The notes under the pieces: model-generated
What the model was told of the DNA's origin: nothing
The model's database searches: none
Seen by the model: the letters and a program-made list of their open reading frames with translations, nothing else
NCBI RefSeq assembly: GCF_007197755.1
Contig: NZ_CP041636.1
Span: forward strand, 3,632,001 to 3,696,000
Direction: 5' to 3'
Length of the DNA stretch: 64,000 nucleotides
Source of the DNA: Ferrovibrio terrae
Lineage (GTDB): Bacteria > Pseudomonadota > Alphaproteobacteria > Ferrovibrionales > Ferrovibrionaceae
Program-made: the position numbers and the translations under genes
Shown here: positions 5,039 to 13,839 of the stretch, one piece after another
Numbering within the stretch: the stretch's first letter is position 1
Layout of the letters: every line of letters begins with the position of its first letter

Positions 5039-5623
5039 CTAGCCCACTTCCACCTGGTCGAGCGACATCGGAGCTTCGGCCGTGCTGCCGCGCGGCGGCG
5101 CCGGATCAACGGTGAAACCGTCGCGCAGCAGGAAGCGGCTCTGCATCGCCTGCACGGCGTATTCCATGTTGGGCGCCGGCACTTCGTAGTAGCGGCCCTC
5201 GATCCATTTATGCGCCGGATGGCTGAACGAACCGGCACTGCTGCCCAGATCGGCATTGCGCACCACTACGCGCCAGGTGCGATAGCGGCGGTCAACCACG
5301 TCGACGATGGTGGAGGTATAGCCGTAAGGCAGGTCGGTCTCCTTATGACGCGCCGCCAGCGAGTCCAGATCCTGCTCGGCGCGCACCACCTGGTTCTTCA
5401 GGTCGGCGATGCTTTCATGCAGCGCCCGCACCGCCTGTTCGGCATCGTTCACCTGCCGCTCGAAGTCTTCCTTCACCGCCGAGATCTCGTCGGCCTTCAG
5501 CCGCACCCGTGTCCAGGCGGCGTGGCTGCGCTCGCCCAGCAGGATGATGATCATCACCGCGATGCCGATATTGGCGCCAGCGGCGAGCACGCCGATGAAC
5601 TGGGTCATCGAGAAATCAGGCAT
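5039..5623 (-). CDS. Membrane-anchored coiled-coil protein, type B copy 1 (unknown function)
   Basis: A 194-residue protein not recognised as a named family. One membrane segment (about residues 9-31, FIGVLAAGANIGIAVMIIIL) is followed by a heptad-rich coiled coil (about 38-97) and a globular C-terminal domain. That domain matches the type-B protein at 6323-6868: both have YxYT, RxWR, a following R[NH]AxLG, W..GRxY, and M..R.L.R.GF.V in the same order. It overlaps the type-A gene upstream by 8 nt, indicating translational coupling. The domain likely faces either the periplasm or cytoplasm; topology is unclear. The duplicated A-B pair suggests that A and B act as a complex. Confidence 0.75.
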   Translation of the reverse strand: MPDFSMTQFIGVLAAGANIGIAVMIIILLGERSHAAWTRVRLKADEISAVKEDFERQVNDAEQAVRALHESIADLKNQVVRAEQDLDSLAARHKETDLPYGYTSTIVDVVDRRYRTWRVVVRNADLGSSAGSFSHPAHKWIEGRYYEVPAPNMEYAVQAMQSRFLLRDGFTVDPAPPRGSTAEAPMSLDQVEVG

Positions 5624-6173
5624 CGCCGAGCCTGATCTTGCCGTTGAACGGACGGATCAGCATGACTTCCGACAGCGCGCCGAAGATCTTCTTGCTGCGC
5701 AGCCGTACCGCCTGCTCATCAGGCAGGCCCCACATCACCACGCGTGCGGTGCGCCGGCCGGGGAAGGCCGCGACGCTGGAGCCCGGGCCGCTGAACATCT
5801 CGTGCATTTCCGGACCGATCAGCTTCACATACCAGCCGGTCTCGTGCGGCTTGGGCGAACCGACCTCGTAGATCACCATGTTGCGCGCATCGCTGAATTC
5901 GACTTCGCGCGCCATCATCGCGCCATAGGCATTCTGCTTCTCGGACAGGCGCAGTTCGAGCGTGGCCTTGTCTTCCTGCAGCTTGTCGTAATCGACCCGG
6001 ATGTCGGAGAGCCTGGTGCGCAGCTGGTCGGCCTCGCTGACCAGCCGGTCGAGCTGGAACCGGCCGCGGGCATAGTTGAACACATAGCGCTCGAGGTTGT
6101 TCGCGCCGAGCGAGACGGCGAAGAACATCAGCAGCGACGGCAGCAGTGCAGAAACGATGTCGACGACATCCAT
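5616..6173 (-). CDS. Membrane-anchored coiled-coil protein, type A copy 1 (unknown function)
   Basis: About 185 residues: an N-terminal membrane segment (about 5-25), a long coiled coil (about 40-92, QLDRLVSEADQLRTRLSDI and onward) and a C-terminal domain. The C-terminal domain matches the type-A protein at 6872-7423: GWYVKLIGP against GFYFRIEGP, then RRTARVVMW against RRRVRLVVW, and IRPFNGK against DQRPFDGK near the end. The start ATG at 6173 is chosen because GGAAGG lies about 8 nt upstream and the membrane segment follows directly; the frame stays open further upstream but without hydrophobic character. No function can be assigned. Confidence 0.75.
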   Translation of the reverse strand: MDVVDIVSALLPSLLMFFAVSLGANNLERYVFNYARGRFQLDRLVSEADQLRTRLSDIRVDYDKLQEDKATLELRLSEKQNAYGAMMAREVEFSDARNMVIYEVGSPKPHETGWYVKLIGPEMHEMFSGPGSSVAAFPGRRTARVVMWGLPDEQAVRLRSKKIFGALSEVMLIRPFNGKIRLGDA

Positions 6174-6322
6174 GCCGACCGGCCTTCCAGCTATTGCCCC
6201 TGAGGGTGTATTCCCTCCGGGTACTGTCGGCCAAAGGCGGGCCCAAATCAATCCGTGTTTTACCGCTGATTGTGCAGTTTGCCGGGCGAATCGCCCTTCG
6301 AATCCATTGGCCAATCCAGCAG

Positions 6323-6868
6323 TTATGCCGAAGGCATGGGCGAATCCGACGATGCCTCGCCGACGTTAACCACCACGAAACCGCGATGGCGCGGCAACAG
6401 GCGGTCCATCACCGACCGCGCCTCGGCCTGGTTCTCCGCGGCGATGACGTAGAGCCGCCCCTGCCCCCACTGCCCGGCCGGCTCGGTCTCGGGCAGGTCG
6501 GCACCAAGCGCGGCATGGCGTGCGGTGAACCGCCACGAGCGCGCATGCATGTCGCGGCTTTCCATCGGCACGACGGTATAGGCGAAGGGATATTCGGTGC
6601 TGTCGAGCCCGCGCTTCAGCGCGTCGCATTCCGCCACGGTCTCGATCAGCTGGCGTCGCACGGCGCCGATGGCGGGCTTCTGTTCGGCAATGGCACGTTC
6701 GACCTGCTCCAGCCGCTGGGTGAGCTCGTACTGGCCCTGGCGACGCATGGCCTTCTCGCTTTCGGCACGGCGATAGCCGAGCCGGGCACGGTCCACCACG
6801 ATCCCAAGCGCCAGGCCGAACAGCAACAGCGCGATCAGTGTCGACAGCACGGTGAGCAGATCGTCCAT
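6323..6868 (-). CDS. Membrane-anchored coiled-coil protein, type B copy 2 (unknown function)
   Basis: A 181-residue paralogue of the protein at 5039-5623 with the same layout: membrane segment (about 4-26, LLTVLSTLIALLLFGLALGI), basic coiled coil (about 32-88) and C-terminal domain with FAYT, RSWR, RHAALG, QWGQGRLYVIAAEN and MDRLLPRHRGFVVV. It starts 3 nt after the type-A copy 2 stop and is therefore co-transcribed with it. A 149-bp gap separates it from the downstream A-B pair. The two B copies are diverged, so the duplication is not recent. Confidence 0.75.
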   Translation of the reverse strand: MDDLLTVLSTLIALLLFGLALGIVVDRARLGYRRAESEKAMRRQGQYELTQRLEQVERAIAEQKPAIGAVRRQLIETVAECDALKRGLDSTEYPFAYTVVPMESRDMHARSWRFTARHAALGADLPETEPAGQWGQGRLYVIAAENQAEARSVMDRLLPRHRGFVVVNVGEASSDSPMPSA

Positions 6869-6871
6869 CGC

Positions 6872-7423
6872 TCAGGCCTCGTGCCAGAAAAGCTTGCCGT
6901 CGAACGGCCGCTGGTCGATCACCCTGGCGCCGTCACCACTGAAATTGAGCATCACCGCCTGCGCCGAATCGAAAGTTGCAGCCCAGACGACCAGCCGCAC
7001 GCGGCGCCGGCCGCCCATCGCGGTCGGCAGCGAGGCAAGACCGGCGAACGGCATCACCGCTGCCGGACCTTCAATGCGGAAATAGAAACCCGGCACGCCC
7101 GGCGCGGGAGCCCCGGCTTCGGCCACCATGTTGTTCTGGCGGTCGGCGAGACGGCGTTCCTGGTCCTGCAGGCTGGCGCGTTCCTTGATCTGCATGGCGA
7201 GATCGCCGTCGAGCTGCGCCTTCTCGTCGCGCAGGGACGCCAGCTCGCCGCGCTTGCGGCTGTAGTCGCTCTGCAGCTGTGCCTGCCTTGTCGCCTCGCC
7301 GGTACCGGAACCGCTGGCATTGAGCTGGTAGATGGCGGTTTCGATATAACCGGCCAGCCCGCCGGCGGCGAGCAGCACCAGCATTGCCGGTACGACAAGA
7401 AGCAGTACTGATTCGGCATCCAT
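6872..7423 (-). CDS. Membrane-anchored coiled-coil protein, type A copy 2 (unknown function)
   Basis: About 183 residues, first gene of the four-gene A-B-A-B set. The membrane segment is at about 5-30 (VLLLVVPAMLVLLAAGGLAG), followed by a coiled coil with regular heptads (about 45-105) and the type-A C-terminal domain (GFYFRIEGP, RRRVRLVVWAATFDSAQAVM, RPFDGKLFW). The ATG at 7423 has a GGAGGGG ribosome site just upstream; a longer in-frame version would add non-hydrophobic residues. It lies 54 nt downstream of the rpsI terminator and so is expected to have its own promoter. Function unknown. Confidence 0.75.
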   Translation of the reverse strand: MDAESVLLLVVPAMLVLLAAGGLAGYIETAIYQLNASGSGTGEATRQAQLQSDYSRKRGELASLRDEKAQLDGDLAMQIKERASLQDQERRLADRQNNMVAEAGAPAPGVPGFYFRIEGPAAVMPFAGLASLPTAMGGRRRVRLVVWAATFDSAQAVMLNFSGDGARVIDQRPFDGKLFWHEA

Positions 7424-7477: not shown

Positions 7478-7503
7478 AAAAAAGCCGGAGCTTGCGCTCC
7501 GGC
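7478..7503 (-). terminator. Intrinsic terminator of rplM-rpsI
   Basis: On the - strand GCCGGAGC-GCAA-GCTCCGGC forms a perfect 8-bp stem with a 4-nt loop, followed directly by TTTTTT. It lies 35 nt after the rpsI stop codon. Confidence 0.9.
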
Positions 7504-8760: not shown

Positions 8761-8860
8761 CGCGGGTTCGTGGCGCTTCGCCAGCGTTCGCGGCGGTTCG
8801 TGGGTGTTCGTAGCGCTTCGCCAGCGTTCGTAGCAGTTCGTGGGCGTTCGCAGCGGTTCG
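8761..8860. repeat. Ten-unit 10-bp phased TTCG repeat
   Basis: TTCG occurs at the end of ten consecutive decamers with exact 10-bp spacing. Within this, 8771-8810 and 8811-8850 are two copies of a 40-bp unit, identical at 35 of 40 positions, and all five differences are transitions. The period is not a codon multiple, and the open frames through it are repeats read out of context. It lies about 90 bp downstream of the response-regulator stop codon. Confidence 0.85.
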
Positions 8861-8951
8861 TTCTGCTCCTGCGGGTTTGGCAACCGGGTGGCACACGCCA
8901 ACAGAACGATATGGGAACGCCGCGTCCTGCCGTCAAGGCCCCACTCGCCCG

Positions 8952-9809
8952 CTACATCATCGGTTTACGCAGCGCCGCAAACAGTTTTGGCGTGGAACGG
9001 ATCGCATGCTCGATGCGCGACTTCAGATCCTTGGTCGTGGTCGGCTTGATCAGGTAGCCCGAGACCTTCAGCGCCTGCGCTTCCTTCACCGTATCCGCGT
9101 TGCTGTCGCCGGTGATCATGATGACCGGCGTATCCTCTATACCCTTCATATTGAGCTGACGCAGGCCCTCGAGGAATTTCAGGCCGCCCAACGGCTTCAT
9201 ATGCACGTCGCAGAGGATCAGGTTGGGCTTGAACTTGGCCACTTCCATCAGGCCTTTCATGCCATCCGTCGCTTCCGCCGTCGCGGTCACGCCGAACTGC
9301 CCCAGCATTTTCTTGACTGTCTGACGAACGATCTCCTCGTCATCGACGATCAATACGCGCATCTTGCCGAAATCGACCGGCAGGCCGTGATGCACCCGGG
9401 CAGCCAGCTCGGCGTCGTTAGCGATAATGCTGTCGATCTGCTCCCGGATCTGGTTGAGGCTGACCGGCTTCACCATATAGCCCGCGACCGAATGCCCCTG
9501 CGCTTTCAGTCGATTTTCATAACCGCCATCGGCCGTGAGCATGACAATCCAGGTACGATCAAGATCGTCGCTAGTGACGGTACGGAACTGCTCGATGAAC
9601 TGGAAGCCATCCATGAAACCCATATTGATGTCGCAGAAGATGATGTCGGGCCGCGCCCGCACGATCTCGCCCAGGCCCTCTACGCCATCCCGAGCCTCTG
9701 CCACATCGCGCACGCCGATCTGCGTCAGGATGCGCCGCGTGATCACGCGCGTGTAGGATTCATCCTCAATCAGCAGAATGTTCAGTCGCGAATAATCGAT
9801 CTTGGGCAT
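8952..9809 (-). CDS. Response regulator with two receiver domains
   Basis: A 285-residue protein made of two CheY-like receiver domains and no output domain. The phospho-acceptor aspartates are D60 (IIFCDINMGFMDG) and D201 (LILCDVHMKPLGG), each with an acidic pair near the domain start (ED at 15-16, DD at 156-157) and a KP motif near the end. The start ATG 9809 is preceded by GGGGAG at 5-10 nt. It lies 13 nt downstream of the large hybrid kinase, so the two form an operon and the kinase's Hpt domain is the probable phosphodonor. Output is presumably by protein-protein contact. Confidence 0.88.
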   Translation of the reverse strand: MPKIDYSRLNILLIEDESYTRVITRRILTQIGVRDVAEARDGVEGLGEIVRARPDIIFCDINMGFMDGFQFIEQFRTVTSDDLDRTWIVMLTADGGYENRLKAQGHSVAGYMVKPVSLNQIREQIDSIIANDAELAARVHHGLPVDFGKMRVLIVDDEEIVRQTVKKMLGQFGVTATAEATDGMKGLMEVAKFKPNLILCDVHMKPLGGLKFLEGLRQLNMKGIEDTPVIMITGDSNADTVKEAQALKVSGYLIKPTTTKDLKSRIEHAIRSTPKLFAALRKPMM

Positions 9810-9822
9810 CGGGCTCCCCGGT

Positions 9823-12800
9823 CTATGCGGCGGGCTTAAGGGCGGAGATGGCAGCCGAGAAACTGTCGGCCTGCTTCTGTAGTTCGGCGATACGCGCAGC
9901 AGCCGCTGGGACATTCCCGGCATCGAGATCGCTTTGCATCTCGGCGGCGCACTCGCCCAGTTGCACTGCCCCAATACTGCGGCCGGCACCTTTCAGCGCA
10001 TGCACCAGATCGCGCGCTTCGGCGGCGTTGCCCGCCCTGAGTGCGGCGTCGATGGCGGTAATGCGGTCTGGCAAATCACCCGCGAAGCCCTGAACCAGTT
10101 CGGCGGCATCCATCGTGTAGCCGCCGAAGATATCGGCGATCCGGGCAAGGTCGAAAACCGACGACTCGTTGACGGGCGCCGTCGGTACGGGTGTAGCGCT
10201 CGCCACCTCACCATTGCCATCGTGGCGCCGCAACGCTGTGCCTTGCGGCATCCATTTCTCGATCGTCGACCGCAGCAAGGCAGTGCTGATCGGCTTGGTC
10301 AGGAAACCGTCCATGCCGGCGGCGATGCAATGCTGTTCGGTTGCCGCCATGGCATCGGCGGTCAGGGCGATGATCGGCAGCCGCGTCCCGCTTCCCTCCT
10401 CGACTTCGCGGATGGCCGTCGTCATGGCGAAACCGTCCATCACCGGCATATGGTAGTCGGACAGGATCAGGCCATAGCCGCCCTGTTCGTACATCTTCAG
10501 CGCTTCTTCGCCATTCTCGGCGATTTCATGTGCGTAGCCCATGCGCGTGAGAATGCGGCGGATGATGTGCTGGTTGGTCTTGTTATCTTCCGCCACCAGG
10601 ATCAGCGCCCGATTGGCGCGCGCTTCGGCCACCGACGGCGGCAGCCACCCGGCTTCTACCGACGAACGGATATCATGTTCGCCCATATCGGGGACGCGAC
10701 CAGACGCGTAGGCAAGGCCGCGCCAGAATAGCTGTCGCGGCAGCGGCAACGGCAATACCGCGCTGGCGCCGTCTTCCTTGACGCGACCCATGGTGGAGAG
10801 CATCGCACGCTGCGTGGCCACCAGCACTTTCAGGTTGGACAGGCCAAGCTGACGAATGCGTTCCATCGCCTCAACCGCCAGGAAAGAGTCGCGCAGCAGC
10901 AGGAAAGCAACCGCGACTGGCACACGCCGCGCCATGGCTGTCAGGGCCTCCTCGAAATCGTGGTGCCCGGCAGTCTCGACCTGCGTGATCTTCGCCGCCG
11001 TCAGATAGCGCTGCACGATGGCGCCACCGGTGTCATCGAAACCGACCATCACGACGCCAAGATCGGATATATCCGCCGGCGGCGCATCCAGCACCGGATC
11101 GACCACCTGGAACGGCACTTCGAACCAGAAGGTGGAGCCTTCGCCGAAGATCGAATGGACGCCGATCTCGCCCCCCATCAGTTCGACGATGCGTTTCGAG
11201 ATGGTGAGACCCAGCCCGGTGCCGCCGAATTTGCGTGACGTCGATGCATCGGCCTGCTGGAAGGCCTGGAACAGCCGCCGCACCTGGTCATCGGACAGGC
11301 CAATACCGGTATCGCTGACATCGAAGCGGATCGTTTCGACGCTACCACGCGCGCGCGACGCCAGCCGCCGCGCCTTGAGCAGGACATGGCCCTTCTCAGT
11401 GAACTTGACCGCATTGCCCAGCAGATTGATCAACACTTGGCGCAGGCGGTTGGGATCGCCCAGCAACTTGACCGGAATATTCGGATCGACCTCGACCAGC
11501 AGTCGCACCGCCTTGTCATGCGCGTTTAGTGCCATCACCTCGGCGGCATTTTCAGAAACAGCGGCCAGATCGAACGGCACGGCTTCCAGATCGAACTTGC
11601 CAGCCTCGATCTTCGAGAAATCGAGAATATCATTGATGATGGTCAGCAGCGCTTCCGCCGACGAACGGATCACGCGCGAGATGTCGCGCTGATCGCTGTC
11701 GAGATCGGTAGAGTCGAGCATTTCCACCATGCTCATCACGCCGTTCATCGGCGTGCGGATTTCATGGCTCATCATCGCAAGGAAGGAGGATTTCGCCCGC
11801 GTCGCCTCTTCCGCCGTTTCCTTGGCTTGCAGCAGGGCCTGCTCGGCTTCCCTGCGCTGGGTGATGTCGCGCACTGCCGCTGAGACCAGCTTCTCGCCGG
11901 CAATCGGGCTGAGACTGACATCGATGGGGAATTCCGTACCATCGCTGCGCCGCGCCGCGAGCGGACGACCCGTGCCCATTGACCTTGCCGTCGCGTGATT
12001 GAGGAATTCATCCCGAATCTGCACATGCCCGCCGCGAAAGCGTTCCGGCATCAGCATCTCGACAGGCCTGCCGATCACATCGGTTCGCCGATACCCGAAC
12101 AGGCTTTCCGCCATGTGATTGAAATGAACGATGTTGCCTTCGGCGTCTACAATCACTGTCGCATCCGGCGCCCCCTCGAACAGCGCAGCGGAAAGGTTGC
12201 GTTCCTTTTCAAGCTGGCGCTCAGCGTCGCGCCTCTCGGTCACATCCTCGACGAAGCTGATCAGGCAGTCTTCATCGCCGAATTTGATGCGGCTGGCAGC
12301 AGCGGTGAGTATGCGCGACTGGTTCGAAGCTAAACGAAAATACTTGATATCCTTTGGTCCGTGGCCACCCGCAGTGAATGCACGTTTGAAGTATTCACCG
12401 ACCTGCGCCCAGTCGATGGCAGCGGTCACCTGCTCCAGATGATCCGGATCGGAAACGGAATGCGCCAACCCCAGAATGCCGAGTGCTCGTTCATTGATAA
12501 AGCGCACCTGCAGCCCCGGCGTCGCGACGAGCACGCCCAGAGGCGTACGGTTCAGCAGCTCAGCCAGCCGCTGCTCCTTCTGCGCCACGCTACGGGCGAG
12601 ATTGTCGTTACGCTCATAGGCCGCCTTGAACTCGCGCACGGCCTGCGCCATGGCGCCGATCTCGTCACTGCGTTCCACATACGGCACGCCGATCGCGAGA
12701 TTGCCCGACGACAGGCCGGTCATAACTTCCGAAAGCTTGCGGATCGGCCGCGTCAGCGTGCGCGCGAAGAAGAAACCGATCAGGCTCACGATCAGCACCG

Positions 12801-13839
12801 CCGCCAACGCACTGGTGATCGCCGTGCGATGGCCTTCTTCCAGTGCCGCGAAGAGTTCCCGCGTGCCGGCCTGCGTGATGAGCGCCCAGGTGACACCATC
12901 CAGATTCACCGGCTTGTACAGCGCTAGCACCGGCTGGCCACGGACATCCGTGGCCGTCTGTTGTGCTTCCTTGCCGGCCAGTGCGCCACGCACCGGCTCT
13001 CCGTCCATCCTTGCCATCAGGAATGCGTTGGAACTGAACCGGCTGTCGGACCGCATCAGATAGTCCGGCCCGACCAGCAATACTTCGCCGGTTTCGCCAA
13101 GGCCGGTCGGATCGAGCACAATCTGGCTGATGCGCTCGCTGGAGAACGAAAGCACGAGCGCGCCGATGGCGTGCTGCAGATCCACATTCAGTTTTGAGGC
13201 GACGAAGGCGAGGCCCTCGCCGCCGGCAGGGGCATATCTGGAAAAGTCTGCGAAGGCGGTATCGCCGAGCGGCACATGAGCGAGCGCCCGTGTATAGAGT
13301 TTGGCAAGCTCCGTATTGGCGTAGGGACCGTTCAAAACATTTGTGCCGAAATCGTCGTCCTTGCGCGTGGTATAGACGATGTCTCCGGCATCGTTGATCA
13401 GCTTCACATCCCGGATGCCCTTGATCTGAGCCAGACGCCGGATGTTGTTATGCACCTCGCGATGGATAGTGGAATACAGCGAGCCGTCATCGGCATCGTC
13501 CACGGCCTGACGGGCACCCACCGGAAAGCGTGACTCACTGCCATAGGCACGGCGCAGGTCTTCCACCTGCTCCGGTGTCATGCGCTTGAAGGCGTTTGAC
13601 AGGCGCCGCATGGCGTCCTGGATATCCTGCCGCCGGGCGGCGACGGCGACTTCTTCCCGGATATCGATGATCTCCCGGATGACGGCAGCCCGCCGGCTCT
13701 CTGCCGCCGAATTCAGCTTGTCGATGGCAGCGGTGCTCAGGCCGCGCTCCGTGGTTGGCCAGATCGATCCCACCACGGCCAGGCCAACCAGCAGCGCAAT
13801 CGCGCCGATCAGAACCGGAAGCTTGTATTCATAGCGCAT
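9823..13839 (-). CDS. Membrane hybrid sensor histidine kinase with Hpt domain
   Basis: A 1338-residue phosphorelay kinase. In order: membrane segment (8-27), a large extracytoplasmic sensor of Cache type (about 30-335), second membrane segment (340-360), HAMP (361-410), two PAS regions (about 420-540 and 550-660), HisKA with H692 in SHEIRTP, an ATPase domain (N-box NLLGNAVKF, DTGIGL, GGTGLGL), a receiver-like region (about 925-1045) that lacks a recognisable phospho-aspartate, an intact receiver with D1128 (LILSDYHMPVMDG), and an Hpt domain with H1280 (HALKGAGRSIG). It is followed at 13 nt by a two-receiver regulator. The signal sensed is unknown. Confidence 0.92.
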   Translation of the reverse strand: MRYEYKLPVLIGAIALLVGLAVVGSIWPTTERGLSTAAIDKLNSAAESRRAAVIREIIDIREEVAVAARRQDIQDAMRRLSNAFKRMTPEQVEDLRRAYGSESRFPVGARQAVDDADDGSLYSTIHREVHNNIRRLAQIKGIRDVKLINDAGDIVYTTRKDDDFGTNVLNGPYANTELAKLYTRALAHVPLGDTAFADFSRYAPAGGEGLAFVASKLNVDLQHAIGALVLSFSSERISQIVLDPTGLGETGEVLLVGPDYLMRSDSRFSSNAFLMARMDGEPVRGALAGKEAQQTATDVRGQPVLALYKPVNLDGVTWALITQAGTRELFAALEEGHRTAITSALAAVLIVSLIGFFFARTLTRPIRKLSEVMTGLSSGNLAIGVPYVERSDEIGAMAQAVREFKAAYERNDNLARSVAQKEQRLAELLNRTPLGVLVATPGLQVRFINERALGILGLAHSVSDPDHLEQVTAAIDWAQVGEYFKRAFTAGGHGPKDIKYFRLASNQSRILTAAASRIKFGDEDCLISFVEDVTERRDAERQLEKERNLSAALFEGAPDATVIVDAEGNIVHFNHMAESLFGYRRTDVIGRPVEMLMPERFRGGHVQIRDEFLNHATARSMGTGRPLAARRSDGTEFPIDVSLSPIAGEKLVSAAVRDITQRREAEQALLQAKETAEEATRAKSSFLAMMSHEIRTPMNGVMSMVEMLDSTDLDSDQRDISRVIRSSAEALLTIINDILDFSKIEAGKFDLEAVPFDLAAVSENAAEVMALNAHDKAVRLLVEVDPNIPVKLLGDPNRLRQVLINLLGNAVKFTEKGHVLLKARRLASRARGSVETIRFDVSDTGIGLSDDQVRRLFQAFQQADASTSRKFGGTGLGLTISKRIVELMGGEIGVHSIFGEGSTFWFEVPFQVVDPVLDAPPADISDLGVVMVGFDDTGGAIVQRYLTAAKITQVETAGHHDFEEALTAMARRVPVAVAFLLLRDSFLAVEAMERIRQLGLSNLKVLVATQRAMLSTMGRVKEDGASAVLPLPLPRQLFWRGLAYASGRVPDMGEHDIRSSVEAGWLPPSVAEARANRALILVAEDNKTNQHIIRRILTRMGYAHEIAENGEEALKMYEQGGYGLILSDYHMPVMDGFAMTTAIREVEEGSGTRLPIIALTADAMAATEQHCIAAGMDGFLTKPISTALLRSTIEKWMPQGTALRRHDGNGEVASATPVPTAPVNESSVFDLARIADIFGGYTMDAAELVQGFAGDLPDRITAIDAALRAGNAAEARDLVHALKGAGRSIGAVQLGECAAEMQSDLDAGNVPAAAARIAELQKQADSFSAAISALKPAA

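Follow-up and report, generated by a model that had tools for sequence, protein, structure and literature searches.

This locus raises the question of what is achieved by four short successive genes of Ferrovibrio terrae that alternate between two types, A and B, each coding for a membrane anchor, a coiled coil (stalk) and a small C-terminal domain. They are encoded on the - strand of the window, the whole stretch of 64,000 nucleotides that was analysed (contig NZ_CP041636.1 of assembly GCF_007197755.1, positions 3,632,001 to 3,696,000). Pair 1 is opened by A1 (6872..7423, 183 amino acids, aa) and closed, after a gap of 3 bases, by B1 (6323..6868, 181 aa). Pair 2 is opened by A2 (5616..6173, 185 aa) and closed by B2 (5039..5623, 194 aa), the two genes overlapping by 8 bases. 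The genes were assigned as open reading frames (ORFs), A1 and A2 also by their mutual homology, and for all four the ATG start and the coordinates were verified. We propose that A and B form a cytosol-facing, membrane-anchored coiled-coil heteromer that acts as a tether or receptor, and we assign to this reading a probability of about 0.58. Sequence analysis provides the homology, the pairing, a Lys/Arg asymmetry, the heptads, the co-divergence and the charge matching; from these we infer that a heteromer forms, that its chains lie in parallel register, that it serves as a tether and that it has a ligand.

The layout seen in the sequence-only reading (an N-terminal membrane segment, a coiled coil and a C-terminal domain in each of the four genes) was borne out by the ORFs, by hydrophobicity and by a mean stalk period of 3.50 residues. 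The hydrophobicity maxima place the membrane segment at residues 6-24 of A1 (7352..7408), 7-25 of B1 (6794..6850), 6-24 of A2 (6102..6158) and 10-28 of B2 (5540..5596), all on the - strand. In structure models, anchor and stalk are one continuous helix (A2 residues 3-94, B2 residues 6-95). According to the models and to invariant alignment columns, the C-terminal domain spans residues ~98-185 of A2 (5619..5882, -; strands and one short helix) and ~98-175 of B2 (5099..5332, -; strand-helix-strand). The latter contains the positions W117, W140, G143, R144 and A156, which are invariant in the B-type alignment.

A1 and A2 are identical in 49 of 182 columns (27%, E value 7e-18) and B1 and B2 in 39 of 167 (23%, E 2e-14). 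The alternation of types, which had been read by eye, thus holds in pairwise alignment. BLAST similarity between A and B in the window is not meaningful. The source genome (G000; labels such as G000, C1, L042 and f52 are our handles for genomes, contigs, loci and families) has a third A-B pair (G000:C1:2994302-2995415; L042:8303-8857 and 8850-9416). In all 10 Ferrovibrio genomes searched, several of which are drafts, A and B matches neighbour each other, and 18 complete pairs make up the Ferrovibrio set. The site behind rpsI holds two pairs in G000, G001, G002, G005 and G008 (the outer pair of G001 runs into the contig end) and one pair in G003, G004, G006, G007 and G009. Orthologues of A1 are present in G002, G005 and G008, and pair 3 was detected in G000, G001, G002 and G005. 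Relatives of A2 with 76-91% identity occur in four named records (three Ferrovibrio sp., one "Alphaproteobacteria bacterium"). A single branch separates each of four groups (pair 1, pair 2, pair 3 and the single pair) from all others in the A tree and likewise in the B tree, with a lowest branch support for these groups of 91/92 (A) and 86/98 (B). Since the same four groups are recovered in both trees, we conclude from the phylogeny that A-B units were duplicated whole, as two-gene units. The duplicated and retained two-gene unit postulated earlier is thus supported by the A1-A2 and B1-B2 homology, by both trees and by the third pair. The joining order of the four groups differs in resolution between the trees, where long branches meet. 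The genes look functional because the ratio of nonsynonymous to synonymous substitution rates (dN/dS) is 0.09-0.39 in 18 within-genus comparisons. An insertion is suggested in G008, where what look by eye like a recombinase gene and a toxin-antitoxin pair (L045:11349-14333) lie upstream of rplM.

A-B pairing is close to a rule. The distance between the A stop and the B start ranges from -8 to +9 bases in the 31 pairs measured, so that the genes overlap or nearly touch, as had been described for pairs 2 and 1. By script, an A-type ORF was found directly upstream of 47 of 52 B-type ORFs in 46 loci; these loci were picked for holding family members, so that the ratio measures pairing and not frequency. 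The other five B-type ORFs are one at a contig end (L044), two at L139, where both members of an adjacent pair were typed as B, one behind a 30-base gap (L180) and one with an extended overlapping frame (L190). Among 80 further regions picked by a B match, 78 contain a pair (lowest A-type score 23.7 bits), the exceptions being L196 at a contig end and L267 without a visible A. In these pairs, an A-type gene is directly followed by a B-type gene, and each has an anchor, a heptad stalk and a domain, apart from 2 of the 78 paired regions (L261, L266) in which the A frame has no clear anchor. The recurrence of A-B pairs in the genus, in family f52 (see below) and in these 78 regions, which profile searches were to decide, shows that they are not special to this locus. 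Neighbouring genes (by eye) vary with pair type and lineage, and a binding partner is therefore probably encoded away from the pair loci. At L186:4218-4619 and L261 (G068) and at L266 (G688), an A gene without recognisable anchor accompanies an intact B partner; these are perhaps frameshifts, wrong starts or decaying pairs.

A and B are ancient paralogues of one domain family, as judged by profiles restricted to the C-terminal domain. The B profile from the genus matches that of B proteins outside the genus (98.4%, score 74.8) and that of A proteins outside (93.4%, score 39.0), and the two outside profiles match each other (A vs B: 96.6%, score 51.5). The A profile from the genus matches the outside profiles of A (71.0%, score 29.2) and B (66.3%, score 28.5). 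Inside the genus, A vs B gave nothing (0.4%, score 12.2). Forty column shuffles per comparison served as controls and reached maxima of 13 to 18 (13.1 for A outside vs B outside). The two domain types distinguished initially are, more precisely, divergent paralogues.

A solo relative with anchor, stalk and domain (L140:5108-5608; G000:C1 ~2919100-2919600) matches both the A and the B profile, and further ones were found at L088, L141, L144 and L145. In each of the five Ferrovibrio genomes in which it was inspected (G000, G003, G006, G007, G008), the solo relative adjoins genes that look by eye like hydantoinase genes; it is possibly near the ancestral single form. Elsewhere, there are also soluble forms of 77-109 aa that consist of the C-terminal domain alone (L087:5431-5745, L089:5214-5534, L090:5655-5906, L142:4515-4844, L143:4316-4549). 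By eye, a gltX-like gene is two genes away in two genomes, and in one genome the soluble form is directly behind a gatB-like gene. The soluble domains have weak matches to DpnD/PcfM (E 0.002-0.005) and, in one case, an Icd-like match (NCBIfam, E 0.003), all below cut-off.

For membrane topology, the Lys/Arg residues among the 20 residues after the membrane segment were compared with those among all residues before it. In 44 pairs, there are more after than before in 40 A proteins (equal in 4) and in all 44 B proteins, and just one A and one B have any Lys/Arg ahead of the segment; B1, for example, has 0 ahead and 7 behind. In a second set of 76 pairs, which partly overlaps the first, this applies to 75 A proteins (1 equal) and all 76 B proteins, with means before vs after of 0.16 vs 3.96 (A) and 0.03 vs 6.13 (B). 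The positive-inside rule is established (PMC5525207). From this rule and the Lys/Arg asymmetry, we predict that stalk and domain are located in the cytoplasm, with a tiny N-terminus outside.

Averaged over 31 A and 31 B proteins, hydrophobicity along the stalk repeats every 3.50 residues (power 0.68 for A and 1.19 for B, with shuffle maxima of 0.36), and this peak recurs for both types in 54 non-redundant pairs. Stalk length is near-constant (72-82 residues from the anchor end to a conserved domain column; 44 A proteins). A and B diverge in concert: their distance matrices correlate with r = 0.98 (31 pairs), and none of 2000 permutations and none of 2000 within-genome swaps (maximum 0.91) reach this value. 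In a parallel A:B coiled coil, true partners would be expected to carry matching charges at positions g and e'. The e-g charge match, available for 29 of 44 pairs, is 1.14 for cognate vs 0.09 for non-cognate partners (0/300), and 1.33 vs 0.21 when compared with within-genome swaps (18 pairs, 7 genomes, 33/5000); outer positions have no comparable excess in this 18-pair test. With the 54 non-redundant pairs, the values are 0.87 vs -0.04 (standard deviation, sd, 0.26; 2 of 5000 permutations as high) and, within genomes, 1.05 vs 0.19 (42 pairs, 16 genomes, 4/5000). Among outer-position controls (1000 permutations), b-c is ~2.3 sd and c-f 1.4 sd below expectation, and b-f, f-b, f-f and c-b are near expectation (f-b within genomes 75/1000). 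An alternative e-g spacing is also in excess (3/1000), as expected since it involves the same faces. We regard this charge match as moderate evidence for cognate heteromers.

The close pairing, the mirrored divergence and the partner-specific charge match are best read as a hetero-oligomer. The proposal of a hetero-oligomeric envelope scaffold is retained to this extent; its periplasmic part is not, because the Lys/Arg counts point the opposite way. The partner-sensing complex offered as the other option is a possibility. In the mechanism that we propose, the ancient paralogues A and B would be produced from adjacent, mostly touching genes, and each chain would insert into the inner membrane with a very short N-terminus outside. 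The partners would form a parallel heteromeric heptad coiled coil of ~70 helical residues, reaching roughly 10 nm into the cytoplasm, which would hold the two small sister C-terminal domains ~10 nm off the membrane. These domains might bind a cytosolic protein or ligand, so that the pair would be a membrane tether or receptor. Where a cell has multiple pairs, stalk charges may help cognate partners to meet. That a genome can carry several pairs, each with charge-matched stalks, suggests versions that operate in parallel and are insulated from each other. It is tempting to extend this to a large family of insulated, orthogonal heteromeric receptors, in which coexisting A:B pairs would exclude others by their stalk charges and present differing domain versions at a fixed height, as parallel cytosolic docking posts; this extension is tentative, and we rate it as possible rather than probable. 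The system lends itself to studying what keeps paralogous coiled-coil partners true to each other within a single cell.

Several observations weigh against the tether or receptor. Wider A-B gaps of 12-30 bases occur in four later pairs (L180, L184, L187, L191), and by eye, no neighbouring gene common to all loci hints at a ligand. Only 67% of the A and 76% of the B stalks (54 non-redundant pairs) peak individually at 3.4-3.6 residues, and heptad registers were set by a simple rule. The stalk lengths of partners, which barely vary, do not co-vary (r 0.16, 25 of 44 pairs, 1151/5000). The 27 newer non-redundant pairs alone give a weaker charge match (0.52 vs -0.06, 296/5000; within genomes 0.70 vs 0.07, 180/5000). 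Compared with the mean of A:A and B:B, the A:B match is higher in 29 and lower in 16 of 54 pairs, a modest difference (Wilcoxon p 0.019), and in the first 29 pairs it is higher in 15 and lower in 11. As to topology, few residues precede the membrane segment, so that low Lys/Arg counts come easily there. Among the 76 pairs of the second set, 12 A and 2 B proteins carry Lys/Arg in this part. Acidic residues are also present behind the segment, and over the 20 residues that follow it, just 7 of 18 Ferrovibrio A proteins have a net positive charge, against 15 of 18 B proteins. A1, which has zero Lys/Arg ahead of its segment and zero in the 20 residues behind, is among the neutral cases. Within its taxonomic family, the distribution outside the genus is patchy, pairs being found only in G011 (two pairs) among 8 genomes.

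The A-B proteins represent a family without a name in the libraries searched. As the sequence-only reading had supposed, no named family was recognised: none of the proteins reaches a curated cut-off among the scored Pfam and NCBIfam matches listed. Weak library matches lie mostly in the stalk. One that reaches beyond it is PHROG 18075 (B2 residues 98-125, E 0.011); others are a match of the solo protein to PHROG 17944 (E 0.066) and one of NCBIfam GlcE to residues 19-144 of the B protein of L078 (E 0.0035, far below cut-off). A search of PDB sequences gave best E values of 0.12 (A) and 0.0083 (B), mostly to coiled coils, and Foldseek gave nothing at E 0.001 for the A or B model. Nothing on A/B proteins was found in the Ferrovibrio literature as represented by a sample of titles and abstract beginnings. 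The structure models, made of single A2 and B2 chains, are moderate (predicted local distance difference test, pLDDT, 74.6 and 75.8), and their fold matches to ferredoxin-like domains are weak (Z below 5). The C-terminal part of B matches PaaB (Z 4.7 over 55 residues, root-mean-square deviation 3.5), a ribosome chain (Z 4.4) and PurS (Z 4.2). That of A matches the same kind of ribosome chains (Z 3.7), which we take to be eL20, and ribosomal LX (2jxt, Z 3.3). The C-terminal parts may thus weakly resemble small ferredoxin-like or LX-like domains, at levels that prove no function; unrelated folds often reach such Z values.

Distant pairs were found in presumed Azospirillaceae and in a few other Alphaproteobacteria. 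With a first profile made from Ferrovibrio B proteins, 27 of 289 genomes of the class matched at E 0.01: two of the genus, five with true pairs, several with domain-only matches (including G013, G046, G052, G176, G196 and G277) and a remainder that matched chiefly in the stalk. The five genomes with true relatives outside the genus have ten A-B pairs (G115 five, G286 two, G068, G191 and G292 one each), and an A-type gene adjoins every B gene inspected there. Of the 289 genomes, five from outside the genus matched the Ferrovibrio A profile, in every case within the stalk; this profile is short of reach, because A-type genes later turned up beside B matches. A broader B profile matches all 59 sampled genomes of family f52 at E 0.001, with best E values per genome from 2.2e-49 to 4.6e-14 and 1 to 15 matches per genome (at least 3 in 51 of the 59), some matches being A-type genes. 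Family f52 is taken to be Azospirillaceae because its member G068 has an A protein that shares 79-80% identity with the products of genes on plasmids of Azospirillum ramasamyi, A. lipoferum and A. oryzae. All 11 matching plasmid records are from Azospirillum and are annotated "hypothetical protein"; A. argentinense Az39 and Azospirillum sp. B510 have an annotated A-B pair with a 4-base overlap. A plasmid search with another B protein (L178) gave no match at E 0.001. An unnamed family is thus present in 59 of 59 sampled presumed Azospirillaceae (as B-profile matches) and 10 of 10 Ferrovibrio genomes (as A-B pairs), and it occurs in well-studied plant-associated bacteria.

In the source order, 15 of 18 genomes match the broader B profile. 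In the same family as the source, G013 has a soluble domain, G010, G015 and G017 have a stalk-region match only, and G012, G014 and G016 have no match to the B profile. In the phylum, 74 of 398 genomes matched at E 0.001. The matches listed outside the source genome end by about model position 137 (anchor and stalk), except in G631 and G634, which match in the domain only; at most 8 candidates were scored per genome, so that absence elsewhere is unproven.

One alternative is that A and B are each homo-oligomeric and that the pair is kept by operon function without direct contact. The modest margin of A:B over the homomers and the existence in Ferrovibrio of a solo relative with the same layout agree with this, but the e-g match is specific to partners, also within genomes, and outer positions lack such an excess; we consider separate homomers unlikely. 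A second alternative is an inner-membrane assembly platform like PilN/PilO or GspL/GspM, with a periplasmic coiled coil and a ferredoxin-like domain. The PilN and PilO genes are adjacent, and GspL/GspM have the same layout and form a heterodimer. According to PMC5805733, PilN/PilO are heterodimers, as is proposed for A-B, and they resemble A-B in having a single N-terminal anchor, a coiled coil and a small C-terminal domain, which is alpha/beta with ferredoxin-like motifs in PilN/PilO and may be so in A-B. The N-terminus of PilN/PilO is described there as short and cytoplasmic and their coiled coil as periplasmic, however, and the Lys/Arg asymmetry found here is the reverse. Stalk and domain are periplasmic in both known systems and predicted to be cytoplasmic in A-B, and no sequence match was seen: PilN, PilO, GspL and GspM are absent from the Pfam matches, taken to E 1, of 10 pair proteins (for the B protein of L091, the best 25 of 38), and PilN and PilO from the top 25 families for the two alignments. 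Flagellar hook-type genes (by eye) are encoded ~3 kb from pair 3 in G000 and G002, but no pilus or type II secretion genes were recognised by eye in the gene lists beside pairs. Such a platform is improbable.

It is equally improbable, in our view, that the pair anchors ribosomes or RNA to the membrane through an RRM- or LX/eL20-like RNA-binding domain. This would suit the position of pairs 1 and 2 downstream of rplM-rpsI in Ferrovibrio, the soluble forms near gatB- and gltX-like genes and the fold matches (PaaB, PurS, RRM domains, LX and presumed eL20; best Z 4.7 for B, 3.7 for A). The latter are of a size common among unrelated folds, however, a terminator-like hairpin separates rpsI from A1, and pair 3 and the inspected pairs outside the genus are mostly away from translation genes (by eye). 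An overlapping pair of genes for anchored coiled coils is also reminiscent of Rz/Rz1, and PHROG spanin families are matched weakly by B2 (E 0.016) and by the solo L088 (E 0.031). A phage, lysis or defence gene pair is nevertheless hardly credible: a search of 50,697 phage records with B2, the only protein used, gave nothing at E 0.01, the three PADLOC matches obtained with 8 proteins (E 0.005-0.01) cover residues 15-98, which are anchor and coiled coil, and A-B is conserved across a genus and a family. Among known systems, ATP synthase b/b' is a paralogous pair with an N-terminal anchor and a cytoplasmic hetero-coiled coil; A-B differs by its 3.50-residue heptad and strand-containing C-terminal domain, and Pfam ATP-synt_B is absent from the matches of the 10 pair proteins (for one, the best 25 of 38). 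As a paired anchored coiled coil, A-B would be most like PilN/PilO or ATP synthase b/b', but we file it under neither, because no sequence signature was seen and because the predicted topology is opposite to that of PilN/PilO. DivIC/FtsB/FtsL also have a single anchor followed by a leucine-zipper-like helix, but their topology is opposite and they are not known to have a second domain. Among 19 B members, 6 gave weak matches to Pfam DivIC (E up to 1, the lowest being 1.4e-4); the bit scores shown, which do not include that of the best match, are below the curated 28.9 (L078 B 14.8, solo L088 11.2, B2 10.6, L078 A 9.9). ZipA, EzrA and YhcB/ZapG are single-pass proteins with the N-terminus out, the C-terminus in and a cytosolic working part; they are not known to be paired paralogues. 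EzrA gave a weak match (E 0.04), to the coiled coil of B1 only.

The gene order on the - strand is rplM-rpsI, a hairpin with a T stretch, A1, B1, A2 and B2, with a spacer of 149 bases between the pairs (6174..6322). The hairpin, followed by TTTTTT (7484..7503, -), lies 60 bases ahead of A1 and reads as a putative intrinsic terminator of rpsI, so that pair 1 may have its own promoter. A program scan called the 7484..7503 stem for the + strand only and called no promoter immediately ahead of A1. A + strand ORF of 421 aa (6146-7411), antisense to A1, B1 and part of A2, outscored the real genes in a gene picker based on GC by codon position. It was rejected as a true gene, since third-position changes in the A1 and B1 frames dominate and dN/dS is low, and is an artefact of GC-rich coding sequence. 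Further along the window, a double response-regulator protein (8952-9989) adjoins a 1338-aa open frame (9823-13839), by eye an ordinary hybrid sensor kinase.

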